Source: Deltaproteobacteria bacterium (GTDB taxonomy: Bacteria; Myxococcota; Myxococcia; SLRQ01). From it: a DNA stretch of 64,000 nucleotides. The position numbers and the translations under genes are program-made. The notes under the pieces are model-generated. The model saw only the letters and a program-made list of their open reading frames with translations, searched no databases and had not been told where the DNA came from. The first letter of the stretch is position 1; each line of letters begins with the position of its first letter. The stretch is from contig JARGFU010000004.1 in the NCBI GenBank assembly GCA_029210625.1, positions 85,329 to 149,328 of the forward strand, in the 5' to 3' direction. This document shows, in pieces, positions 39,490-44,210 of the stretch.

Positions 39490-40332
39490 CTACCAGCCCG
39501 CGCCGATGGTCAGGCCCCCCTGGGGGTAGAGGACCATCGCGCCGTCCCCGCTGACCTCGCCGTCCGCGTCGGTGTAGTTCGCGGCCAGGTTGGGTCCGGC
39601 CTCGAGGCCCGCGCCCAGGGAGATGCGGAAGCGGCCCGCGGTGAGGATGGCGGCCACGGTCAGCCCACCGCCGAGGGCGGGCCAGTGAGCCTTGGCCTGG
39701 ATGGCCCCCGAGGAGGTGTTGTCGTCGCGCTCGGCGAAGACGTAGAAGGCCCGGAAGAAGGCGGTCCCCGAGAGATCGAACCACTCGACGGGGCTGTAGG
39801 TGAACATCACCGGGAGCTCGCCGCCCGCCGCATGGACCTTGGTCTCGGTGCGGTAGTCGTTGATGCCCGAGGAGATGTAGACACCGTTGGTCCAGATGCC
39901 CCGGGGGGAGAGGTGCAGGGCGATCCCCTGCTCGGGCTTCTCGAGCAGCTCGAAGATCGGCGCGAGGGTGAAGCCGTTGGGCATCGGGAAGGGGAAGGGC
40001 ACCAGGAAGCTGGTCGTGATCCGCGCGTCGAGGCCGATCTGGTCGGTGAGGCCGTAGCGGAAGGCCAGGTCGAGGCCGAGCCACATCGGCGGCTGATCGT
40101 TGTCGGGCTCGGGCTCTCCGTCGGCGCCGACCTCGACCCCGTAGGAGGGGTTGCGGCCCAGGGGGATGTCCACCCCGAAGTCCCCCTGCCCCTTCTCCAT
40201 CGGCGGGACGTAGCGCCCCGGCGGCGCGGCGTTGGCCGAGTAGAAGAAGACGCAGCCGGTGGAGGTGAAGAGCAGCACCCCCAGCGCCGCGAGAGGTAGG
40301 AGCCGCCCCAGCAGGCGTTGGAACCTTCGCAT
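39490..40332 (-). CDS. Outer-membrane lipoprotein, function unknown
   Basis: 280 residues from ATG 40332. Lipobox LLFTSTGC around residues 20-27. The rest has strand-rich, aromatic-rich character typical of beta-barrel or barrel-like envelope proteins (LDLAFRYGLTDQIGLDARITT, MFTYSPVEWFDLSGTAFFRA, LGAGLEAGPNLAANY). It ends in Trp (LTIGAGW). No named family is recognised. The gene is divergent from the Mla-like transporter, with 78 bases between the starts. Confidence 0.68.
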   Translation of the reverse strand: MRRFQRLLGRLLPLAALGVLLFTSTGCVFFYSANAAPPGRYVPPMEKGQGDFGVDIPLGRNPSYGVEVGADGEPEPDNDQPPMWLGLDLAFRYGLTDQIGLDARITTSFLVPFPFPMPNGFTLAPIFELLEKPEQGIALHLSPRGIWTNGVYISSGINDYRTETKVHAAGGELPVMFTYSPVEWFDLSGTAFFRAFYVFAERDDNTSSGAIQAKAHWPALGGGLTVAAILTAGRFRISLGAGLEAGPNLAANYTDADGEVSGDGAMVLYPQGGLTIGAGW

Positions 40333-40410: not shown

Positions 40411-41955
40411 ATGCCTGCCGCGCTGATGACCCTCGAGGGCCTCGACGTCCGCCTGCCCGGCGGCGAGGCGATCCTCGAGGACCTCTCCCTCACCGTGGCG
40501 GCCGGCGAGATCGTCGCGATCCTGGGGGCGAGCGGCGCGGGCAAGTCCACCCTCCTGCGGGCCCTCTTCGAGCCCGATGTCCTGGGGCGCCTGGGCTTCT
40601 CCCTCTCGGCCGAGAAGCTCGAGATGACCCCCGCGGCGCTGGTCCCCCAGCAGGGGGCCGTCCTCGATCACCTCTCGGTGCGCGGCAACGTCCAGCTCGC
40701 CCGCCGCTGGCAGGGGGTGGAGAACGATCCGCCCGAGGCGTGGCTCGAGCGGGTGGGCCTGGGCAAGCTGGCGAGGCGGCCGGTGGCCGGCCTCTCGGGG
40801 GGACAGCGCCAGCGCCTGGCGGTGGCCCGGGCCCTCGCCGCGGGGAGGCAGCTCCTCTTCCTCGACGAGCCCAGCGCGGGCCTCGACGCCCACTCGGTCC
40901 ACGAGATCGCCTCCCTGTTGAAGGAGCAGGCGCGGGACGCCGGCGTCGGCATCGTGCTGGTCACCCACGACCCCACCCTGGTCGCCCTGGCCGCCGACCG
41001 GGCCCTCTTCCTCGATCCGGCGAAGAAGAAGTTCGAGGTGATGCCTCACGAGACCTCGGAGGAGGACGAGCACGGCTTCGAGCACCGGCTGCGCGAGCGG
41101 CTGGCCGAGGCCAGCGGGGATCGCGGCGGCAGCTCGAGGCGCCGGCCCCTGAAGGCGCTGGCCGCCGACCTCTGGCAGCGCAGCTTCGCCTCCCTGGAGG
41201 TCCCCCTGCTGGCGCTCGCGCCGCTGCTGCGCACGCCGCCGCGCCAGTGGGCCGATCTGATCCGCGTCGCCCTGCGGGTGGGGCGCCAGGCCATCAGCCG
41301 CCCGGCCCCCTTCTACGCGGTGGTCAGCACCCTCCTGGGCTTCACCATCCTCTACGTCCTGGTGCGGGCCGCCCCGGCGGGGCTCTCGACGAAGAAGCTG
41401 CTGGAGATGGTGGGCGGCCTCTACATCCTGGCCCTGGCCCCGCCCCTCTCGGCGCTCCTCTTCGTGGCCACCAGCGGCGCCGCCGTCTCGGCCTGGCTGG
41501 GCAGCCTGCAGCTGGGCAAGCAGGTCAGCGCCCTCTCGGCCCTCGGCATCACCCGGGAGCGCTACCTCTTCCTGCCGGGCTTCCTCACGATGGTGCTGGG
41601 CTTCGCCCTCTGCGCGGCGCTCATCAGCGGCGGCCTCGCGCTGGGGGGCGCCATCCTGCACGTGATGGAGGGCGCCTCGAGCGAGGTCTGGCCGGCGCTC
41701 TGGCGGATCCTCGGGGATCTGCTCGACCCCCTCCCCGAGCGCGCCCGCCTCCAGGCCCGGGCGGTCTGGCTCCTCGCCCTCTACGCCCCGGGGATCGCCG
41801 CCGACGTCATCGCCCGGGGCAGCGACCTCAAGGAGCGCAGCGACGACGTCACCCGCGCCATGACCGGCAGCGTGGTGGCCTGCACCCTCTGGGTGGTCGT
41901 CCTCGAGCTGGGCTCGGCCCTGATCCTCTTCGCGGAAGGGGGGGCCGACTTTTGA
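40411..41955 (+). CDS. ABC transporter, ATPase-permease fusion of MlaF/MlaE type
   Basis: 514 residues. Residues 1-235 are an ABC ATPase: Walker A GASGAGKST (39-47), Q-loop region VPQQGAV, signature LSGGQRQRLAVAR (128-140), Walker B LLFLDEP (148-154). After a charged linker (EEDEHGFEHRLRERL), residues from about 255 form a permease with MlaE-like features: GAAVSAWLGSLQLGKQVSALSALGIT and YLFLPGFLTMVLGF. In classical Mla/Mce systems ATPase and permease are separate chains that move phospholipids between membranes; a fusion is unusual. ATG 40411 is chosen over upstream codons by family alignment. Confidence 0.8.
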   Translation: MPAALMTLEGLDVRLPGGEAILEDLSLTVAAGEIVAILGASGAGKSTLLRALFEPDVLGRLGFSLSAEKLEMTPAALVPQQGAVLDHLSVRGNVQLARRWQGVENDPPEAWLERVGLGKLARRPVAGLSGGQRQRLAVARALAAGRQLLFLDEPSAGLDAHSVHEIASLLKEQARDAGVGIVLVTHDPTLVALAADRALFLDPAKKKFEVMPHETSEEDEHGFEHRLRERLAEASGDRGGSSRRRPLKALAADLWQRSFASLEVPLLALAPLLRTPPRQWADLIRVALRVGRQAISRPAPFYAVVSTLLGFTILYVLVRAAPAGLSTKKLLEMVGGLYILALAPPLSALLFVATSGAAVSAWLGSLQLGKQVSALSALGITRERYLFLPGFLTMVLGFALCAALISGGLALGGAILHVMEGASSEVWPALWRILGDLLDPLPERARLQARAVWLLALYAPGIAADVIARGSDLKERSDDVTRAMTGSVVACTLWVVVLELGSALILFAEGGADF

Positions 41956-43634
41956 AGCGGCGCATCCCCCTGAAGCGCCCCGGCCACGGCGGCGCCGCCG
42001 GTCGGATCGTCGCGGCGCTGGGCAGCCTGCTCCTCCTCTCCGGCGCCGCCCTCGGGCTGCAGCAGTGGCTGCGCGCCCTCTCCGGCGAGCGCCCCCGGGT
42101 GGAGGTGACGCCGCCGGGGCCGGTGCTGCAGCTGCCCACGGTGATCGTCGCCCGGGGCGAGGCACGCAAGGGGAGCTTCACCCTCGACGGCGCGCCGGTG
42201 CCGGAGGGCCTCCAGAAGGATCGCCGGACGGTGATGCTCGGCCCCGCCGACCTCACCCCGGGGCTCCACCAGCTGGCCTGGAAGCAGACCTTCGTCGGCC
42301 AGCGCGAGCGGGGCGTCTCCCTCGGGATGATGGTCGGCCCCTTCCGGGAGGCGGGCGAGGCGACGCCCTGCGCCCTGAAGGCGACGGTGCGGCAGGCCGC
42401 CCTCGACACCTTCTCCCCCGAGCTCTCCCTCCTGGTGCGCGAGAAGGCCGCCGCGGTGAAGGGCCTGCCGAAGATCGTGCGCTCCGAGGCGCGGCTGCTC
42501 CTGGTCGAGGGCGGCCTCGACGCGCAGACCAAGGTCACCTTCGCCGACGGCTCCGAGCTGCAGGCGATCGTGCCGCTGGCCCTCGCCCCGAAGCTCGACG
42601 CCCCGGTGCAGGTGAAGCTGCGCGGCGACGTGAAGGTCGACGTGAGCGGCGCGGTGGGGGCCATGGCCTCCCTCAAGGGCGGCGGCCTGCTGGCGGCCCT
42701 GGCCGAGGTGGTGCAGCGGCCGGAGCGGGGGCTGGAGGGCGCGCTCTCGGCGGCCCGCCAGGCGGGCAACGAGGTGGTGCGCGCGGAGGTGCAGGGCGCC
42801 CTGGAGGGCTGGCTCTCGCGCTTCGACGAGGAGCTGAAGGAGCTCTTCCCGACCGAGCTCTCGACCGAGCTGCTCGGCGTGAGGGCGCGGCTGACGCTCA
42901 CGCCCTGCGGCACCCCGAAGGTGAGGCCGGGCAAGGCCCTGATCCTGCGCCACGGGATCGGCCTCGCGATCGACGCCGAGGGGCTGGCGCCGCCGTCGGC
43001 GGCCGCCGACCTCCCCGGGCCGGTGCGCCGGGAGGGCGCCGAGCTCGACGGACGGACGGGGCCGGGCGCGGCGCCGATCTCGCTGCAGCTCTCACCGGCG
43101 GCGATCGACGCCTTCCTCGACGCGGCCTGGCGCAGCGGCGCCCTCTCCCTGCTCGGCGCCGACCCCGAACTGGTCAGGCGCACCAACGCCCGCCTCGCCG
43201 GGCGCGTCTCCTTCCGCCTGCGCTCGGTCGAGCTGCGCCTGCCGCCGGTGCTGGAGCTCGGGGGCGCGCAGAGCCTGCTGCGCGCCTCGGAGGCGACGCT
43301 CCACCTCGAGGAGCAGGAGGCCGGCCCGGTGGACCTGGTGCTCTCGGGCGCGGCGAGCCTCGAGGCGAAGGTGGGCGAACGGACGATGGTGCTCACGGCC
43401 CGGGCCACCGGCGTCGAGGGGAGCTGCCGCCGCGACGACGGCGACACCGAGGTGCGTGAGCCCTGCTACCCCGAGCTGCTCTCGGCCCTCTCCGACGTGC
43501 TGGTCACCCAGGGGACCTTGAGCCACGAGCGCGGCAGCGCGCTGGGCCTCTCCCGGGCGAGGGTCTGGGTCAGCGGCGTCGGCCTCGATCCCGAGGGCCT
43601 GAAGGTCGACCTGCAGGTGCAGCCGACGCCCTGA
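41952..43634 (+). CDS. Membrane-anchored protein, possible lipid-binding (TULIP-like) partner of the Mla-like transporter
   Basis: 560 residues starting at TTG 41952, which overlaps the transporter stop (TTGA). The N-terminus is basic with one membrane segment (RIVAALGSLLLLSGAALGL); the rest is predicted periplasmic. Amphipathic segments include ISLQLSPAAIDAFLDAAWRSG and LRSVELRLPPVLELGG. The first resembles the LSxDxLNxxLyAxWxxG pattern of BPI/LBP-like TULIP proteins, which enclose lipids in a tube. No named family is certain. Translational coupling to a lipid-type ABC transporter supports a shared role; this is inference. Confidence 0.6.
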   Translation: MKRRIPLKRPGHGGAAGRIVAALGSLLLLSGAALGLQQWLRALSGERPRVEVTPPGPVLQLPTVIVARGEARKGSFTLDGAPVPEGLQKDRRTVMLGPADLTPGLHQLAWKQTFVGQRERGVSLGMMVGPFREAGEATPCALKATVRQAALDTFSPELSLLVREKAAAVKGLPKIVRSEARLLLVEGGLDAQTKVTFADGSELQAIVPLALAPKLDAPVQVKLRGDVKVDVSGAVGAMASLKGGGLLAALAEVVQRPERGLEGALSAARQAGNEVVRAEVQGALEGWLSRFDEELKELFPTELSTELLGVRARLTLTPCGTPKVRPGKALILRHGIGLAIDAEGLAPPSAAADLPGPVRREGAELDGRTGPGAAPISLQLSPAAIDAFLDAAWRSGALSLLGADPELVRRTNARLAGRVSFRLRSVELRLPPVLELGGAQSLLRASEATLHLEEQEAGPVDLVLSGAASLEAKVGERTMVLTARATGVEGSCRRDDGDTEVREPCYPELLSALSDVLVTQGTLSHERGSALGLSRARVWVSGVGLDPEGLKVDLQVQPTP

Positions 43635-43635
43635 C

Positions 43636-43719
43636 GGGGTCAGACCCCGACACAAGACATTTGGACCGGGTCACTTTCCGGGCCAGGAACACAAATGTCA
43701 TGTGTCGGGGTCTGACCCC
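43636..43719. repeat. 84-bp palindromic repeat element
   Basis: 28-bp inverted arms (43636-43663 and 43692-43719, one mismatch) begin and end with GGGGTCAGACCCCGACAC and its complement, around a 28-base interior. The element starts 2 bases after the TULIP-like gene's stop. Its right arm encodes the last residues and stop of the STAS gene. It may act as a bidirectional transcript end. REP/MITE type. Confidence 0.85.
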
Positions 43720-44210
43720 ATCTGGAGGTCGCGCTCGAGGGAGGCGACGACCTCTCGGAAGGTCTCGCGGTTCTCCTCGCTCATCTCCATGAGGGTGCGG
43801 TGGGCGGCGAGCATGACCCGGCCGAGCTCGGCGGGATCGATCGCGCCCGCCTCGACGTGCTCGTCCGCGAGGGCGGGCTCACCCCGCTTGGTCTCGACGA
43901 TCTCGAAGAAGTCGCGAAAGCCCATGCTCTCGAGGAGCTCGAGGAGCTCGGCCCGATCGCAGACCAGGGTCAGCCGGCCGCCGCGCTGCCTCGCCAGCCG
44001 GTTGCCGAAGCGGGCCAGCATGCCGAGGTTCGTGCTGTCGATGCTGGTGGTCTCGCAGAGGTCGGCGACCAGGCCGACGAGCTCACCCTCCTCGAAGAAG
44101 GTGCTCATCAGCTTCGTCACCGCCGGGGCCAGCGGGTAGCGGATCTCGCCGACGAAGCGCAGGACGTGGACGCCCTCGTGGGCGCCGTGCAGGACGCGGC
44201 CGCTAGGCAT
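43698..44210 (-). CDS. STAS-domain protein (anti-sigma-factor antagonist type)
   Basis: 170 residues. Residues about 8-115 form a STAS domain: VLRFVGEIRYPLAPAVTKLM, then TTSIDSTNLGMLARFGNRLA, where Ser59 matches the phosphorylated serine of SpoIIAA/RsbV. A helical extension (about 125-168) is additional. Its start overlaps the end of the response-regulator/phosphatase gene by 8 bases, as expected for an antagonist and the phosphatase that reactivates it. The last residues (GSDPDT) and stop lie inside the palindromic repeat, so the original C-terminus may have been altered. Confidence 0.85.
   Translation of the reverse strand: MPSGRVLHGAHEGVHVLRFVGEIRYPLAPAVTKLMSTFFEEGELVGLVADLCETTSIDSTNLGMLARFGNRLARQRGGRLTLVCDRAELLELLESMGFRDFFEIVETKRGEPALADEHVEAGAIDPAELGRVMLAAHRTLMEMSEENRETFREVVASLERDLQMGSDPDT

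Follow-up and report, generated by a model that had tools for sequence, protein, structure and literature searches.

An ATPase–MlaE permease fusion and an overlapping gene for a membrane-anchored BPI-like protein suggest a lipid transporter without an MCE partner

RESULTS

A fused ATPase–permease gene overlaps a gene for a membrane-anchored protein

The window, the whole 64,000-nt stretch of DNA that was analysed, contains two overlapping genes on its forward strand. The first (gene 1; 40411..41955, +) begins with ATG and encodes a 514 aa protein that joins an ABC ATPase and an MlaE permease in a single chain. In particular, residues 22-155 (40474..40875, +) match Pfam ABC_tran with an E-value of 3e-24 and residues 294-500 (41290..41910, +) match MlaE (PF02405) with an E-value of 4.9e-13, both above the curated cut-offs, and the same fusion is found in an ortholog from a second genus (56% identity). 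By inspection, the ATPase retains all of its catalytic motifs (Walker A GASGAGKST, signature LSGGQ, Walker B LLFLDEP and H-loop THD), and it shares about 31-35% identity with MlaF proteins from the phylum; judged by its domain and intact motifs, it looks like a functional ABC ATPase. Moreover, a profile of the permease matches the solved MlaE chains 7ch8, 6z5u, 6ic4 and 6xbd, with E-values from 2.9e-6 to 4.5e-4.

The second gene (gene 2; 41952..43634, +) encodes a 560 aa protein, and its TTG start at 41952 overlaps the stop of gene 1, with TTGA as the shared letters. It has a single hydrophobic segment, located at its N-terminus (residues 14-37; 41991..42062, +; Kyte-Doolittle peak of 1.91), several residues of which are identical in the ortholog; inspection finds no lipobox Cys. 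It is read as a signal-anchored periplasmic protein whose N-terminal helix probably remains uncleaved. A preliminary description of this DNA had claimed an ATPase and permease in one chain, followed by a membrane-anchored protein with a TTG start overlapping the stop, and both claims hold at the exact coordinates given here.

Direct scans of gene 2 against Pfam, NCBIfam, PHROGs and PDB sequences returned no match. The analysis described below divides it into a putative N-terminal TULIP-like domain (residues 136-300; 42357..42851, +) and a BPI-C-like TULIP domain (residues 363-560; 43038..43631, +) that carries 'AW..G' and 'LPPV' motifs and a conserved Cys492/Cys505 pair; all four cysteines of the protein are conserved in the ortholog, and no further cysteines occur. 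An Ig-like domain at residues 45-131, suggested by domain order, was unsupported on profile comparison.

Two other genes border the pair. Upstream, a divergent gene (39490-40332, -), whose start is separated from the start of gene 1 by about 80 bases, probably encodes a lipoprotein of beta-barrel-like sequence; it was not seen beside the pair of the second genome. Downstream lies a convergent STAS gene (43698-44210, -). The idea that it supplies an MlaB-like subunit was rejected because a response-regulator gene on the opposite strand overlaps it and because it is missing beside the second-genome pair. Between gene 2 and the STAS gene lies a 40-nt inverted repeat (43624-43731; arms GGGGTCAGACCCCGACACA, 88% complementary). 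Two further contigs of the genome also carry the 19-nt arm of this repeat, and the repeat could thus be REP-like or a small mobile element.

The overlapping pair is kept in a second genus

The genome of Deltaproteobacteria bacterium isolate CSSed162cmB_222, which belongs to the same family and a different genus, has both genes in the same order. Genome sizes, composition and this record title point to Myxococcota as the phylum. The genes overlap by four bases in the window and by one base (stop/start) in the second genome. Beyond the 56% identity of the whole fusion, the permease part is 63% identical and gene 2 is 30% identical; the genes that flank the pair differ between the two genera. Because both reading frames are conserved, the pair is not a chance ORF.

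Further close copies of the pair were found neither among the 147 genomes of the class nor among the 195 of the phylum. A scan of the contigs of 84,980 species with peptide patterns, which are insensitive to distant relatives, returned the second genome's contig as the sole match to the permease, and the same kind of scan returned no match to gene 2 alone. Searches of plasmids (tblastn) and a scan of viral contigs found no relatives. Conservation of the pair, which the preliminary description had put forward as a check, is thus seen as overlapping genes kept in two genera within changed surroundings, and nowhere else in the 195 phylum genomes.

The MCE genes of both genomes adjoin other MlaE genes

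The window genome (6.1 Mb) has two MlaE genes and one MCE match, and this single MCE gene is on another contig, next to another, canonical pair of mlaE and mlaF. In the second genome there are four MlaE-type matches and three MCE genes, each of the latter on the contig of a canonical MlaE, and there is none on the contig of the fusion. No MCE gene adjoins the fusion in either genome. As all MCE genes are matched to other MlaE genes, the fusion alone among the MlaE genes is left with no MCE gene in each genome. The lack of an MCE protein, claimed from the window, thereby extends to a second genome, and in neither of the two does an MCE gene partner the fusion elsewhere.

Instead, the fusion could share an MCE protein with a canonical operon at another site in the genome, in which case gene 2 would be no more than a co-transcribed neighbour. 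Canonical MCE systems are indeed present in both genomes; however, every MCE gene already shares its contig with an MlaE of its own, and the two genera retain the overlap with gene 2 although their other neighbouring genes differ, which makes such sharing improbable.

The next-best permease matches in the phylum (L018, L026 and L039) were considered as further fusions and rejected, as they belong to canonical STAS-MlaE, MlaF and MCE operons. These permeases carry an N-terminal STAS-like domain in one chain with MlaE, and their operons include MlaF and MCE genes, plus a gene for an outer-membrane-like protein upstream.

The C-terminal half of gene 2 is homologous to secreted BPI-like proteins

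A search profile made from the two gene 2 proteins was run over the phylum. It matched four genomes of another family (f11) at a common place (columns 366-486; E 5e-4 to 1e-2), where the matches fall inside large secreted proteins; weak class-level matches outside this family were counted as noise. In two of the f11 proteins, the place that matches gene 2 directly follows a weak match to LBP_BPI_CETP (best 0.008), and an Ig-like domain lies upstream.

Profile-profile comparison (hhalign) aligned gene 2 to this secreted protein family at 7.6e-6, its C-terminal half alone to a wider set of the family at 1.7e-8, and gene 2 to 18 family members, with gene 2 excluded from the set, at 1.1e-5; reversed and shuffled controls gave background scores. 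The homology extends over some 110-150 residues, which follow one another in the expected order. At the level of profile comparison, the C-terminal half of gene 2 is homologous to myxococcal BPI-like secreted proteins.

The secreted family, in turn, is linked to BPI, a human immune protein that binds lipid, and to LBP. Its top three matches among PDB sequences are BPI, BPI and LBP, with E-values of 0.16-0.42 when four members are used and of 3.5e-4, 4.6e-4 and 1.3e-3 when 18 are used; one of the 18 (L105) was first met through a BPI model and was refound by a family profile that already contained it. Another set matched PDB BPI at 4.5e-5, a value that is not independent because the set held members chosen with the BPI model. 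The BPI and LBP matches arise from the N-terminal half of the secreted proteins, and the homology to gene 2 arises from their C-terminal half. Gene 2 is thus tied to BPI by sequence in its C-terminal half only, through this intermediate family; its N-terminal half had no significant match to TULIP sequences, and a profile of the C-terminal half, compared directly with PDB sequences, found nothing. Overall, the BPI/TULIP-like segment claimed for gene 2 is borne out by these two steps (1e-5 to 1e-8, then 3.5e-4), and the BPI/TULIP proposal is well supported.

The secreted proteins are large, roughly 500-1300 aa, with C-terminal BPI-like domains that are often preceded by an Ig-like domain. They occur in about 23 of the 195 phylum genomes, besides the two with the pair (loci L101-L105, L107-L120 and L084-L100; for example, L101:5782-9066), and they match BPI/LBP directly by profile, yet under the Pfam BPI cut-off. 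A compact secreted BPI-like protein of 489 aa (L046:1285-2754, in genome G063; LBP_BPI_CETP E 0.001) occurs in one genome of the same class. The other BPI-like loci that were checked in the phylum have no MlaE permease in their vicinity, and among them the pairing thus has neither an independent instance nor a second origin.

Low-confidence structure models give weak pointers to a TULIP fold

AlphaFold models of gene 2 and its ortholog, each built from only two sequences, have low confidence (mean pLDDT of 39 and 42), with residues 150-290 of gene 2 mostly at 50-80. In the model, residues from about 136 to 300 run through a strand, a helix, a set of antiparallel strands and finally a long helix; the C-terminal half repeats a similar order of secondary structure. 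When the gene 2 model was compared with 350,542 PDB chains (Foldseek), the best match was LBP (E 8.7e-3, 503 columns), and BPI ranked fifth; roughly a dozen of the top 50 matches of the ortholog model are TULIP chains (SPLUNC1/BPIFA1, juvenile hormone binding protein and OrfX3), all with weak E-values. The fold matches are individually weak (best E of 8.7e-3, TM-scores of about 0.1-0.2) and, because the TM-scores are low, they are pointers and not proof. Two tandem TULIP domains would fit both the order of secondary structure and the 503 columns aligned to LBP, at a pLDDT of 39-42 and with an N-terminal half that sequence leaves unmatched; this half may be TULIP-like by its predicted topology.

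Alternatively, gene 2 could share a short motif with the BPI-like family while the remainder adopts an unrelated fold. The low confidence of both models, the N-terminal half that goes undetected by sequence, and the empty comparison between the C-terminal profile and PDB sequences would all fit this explanation. Against it, the homologous stretch of about 110-150 residues is correctly ordered, and fold searches with two models each picked TULIP proteins from the 350,542 chains; an unrelated fold is accordingly very improbable. The preliminary description had named structure prediction as the check for a TULIP fold. The models have low confidence, but the profile links and fold searches favour a TULIP of the BPI/LBP type over an unrelated domain.

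DISCUSSION

The sequence comparisons suggest that the pair is probably an MlaE-type inner-membrane lipid ABC transporter in which a BPI-like tube takes the place of the MCE ring. In such a transporter, two copies of gene 1 would form an ATP-driven core with two ATPase and two MlaE domains, and gene 2 would be held beside the MlaE domains by its N-terminal helix. From this anchor, a double TULIP tube of BPI type would extend into the periplasm, taking the position of the hexameric MCE ring and supplying a hydrophobic path. Hydrolysis of ATP would move a lipid, perhaps a phospholipid, in one direction or the other between the pocket in MlaE and a hydrophobic groove in gene 2, and gene 2 could pass the lipid on to the outer membrane or to another carrier, or accept it from either.

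Gene 2 might instead be a BPI-like accessory or sensor that binds lipid or lipopolysaccharide and regulates the transporter or protects the envelope, rather than acting as a conduit, while the fusion flips lipids alone in the style of an ABCG half-transporter. BPI and LBP bind lipopolysaccharide and are not known to be transporter subunits, ABCG half-transporters have the same order of an ATPase followed by a permease, and the relatives of gene 2 within the phylum are free secreted proteins. However, the gene overlap and the membrane anchor put gene 2 at the place of MlaD, and solved MlaE complexes bear a periplasmic partner on top (PMC7790496). On balance, an accessory or sensor role is unlikely.

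The distinct lipid-transport system proposed in the preliminary description is supported by the fused MlaE engine, the conserved pair, the lack of an MCE partner and the BPI-like gene 2, and we infer that the two proteins act physically together in lipid transport. It is about an even prospect that the pair represents a second solution for moving lipids through the envelope, in which an MlaE ABC engine works with a BPI-homologous TULIP tube in place of the MCE ring.

Studies of MlaE permeases treat them as engines that act via MCE rings. If the proposed transporter is correct, a natural MlaE engine has a BPI-like partner and no MCE protein, implying that the periplasmic module is exchangeable and helping to separate MlaE's own role from that of the MCE ring. 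Further, the lipid-transfer fold of animal BPI, LBP and CETP would be joined directly to an ATP-driven bacterial lipid transporter, a direct link of which we know no earlier case. No description of an MlaE-TULIP pair was found in the published literature covered, which excludes most subscription journals. Overall, the pair suggests an undescribed bacterial route of lipid movement through the cell envelope.

Comparison with known systems

The closest comparison is with E. coli MlaFEDB, in which helices of MlaD anchor the MCE ring on top of MlaE and the pore of the ring is aligned with the MlaE pocket (PMC7790496). Like MlaFEDB, the pair has an MlaE-family permease with an ABC ATPase and a periplasmic partner anchored by an N-terminal helix. 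Unlike MlaFEDB, its ATPase and permease are fused, its partner is BPI-like, and it has no MCE protein (MlaD) and no MlaB STAS subunit. Of the features that define an MlaE/MCE-type transporter, the pair has the MlaE permease and an ABC ATPase with intact motifs, and lacks an MCE partner encoded beside it and the separate chains.

Gene 2 resembles BPI, LBP and CETP (PF01273, PF02886), and the myxococcal secreted proteins with Ig and BPI-like domains, in its homologous C-terminal half and its predicted two-domain order. In contrast to these proteins, it is membrane-anchored and is paired with an ABC transporter, and its sequence is too diverged for the Pfam models of BPI/LBP/CETP. Other bacterial TULIP proteins (DUF4403, YceB, DUF2140 and DUF2993) are predicted periplasmic lipid-binding tubes, for which the parts of the source consulted describe no ABC permease partner (Levine 2019, PMC6791001); unlike them, gene 2 is unmatched by these Pfam families. 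Finally, gene 1 is similar to ABCG-type half-transporters in its arrangement within a single chain, and differs from them in that its permease is an MlaE, with a dedicated gene for a periplasmic partner.
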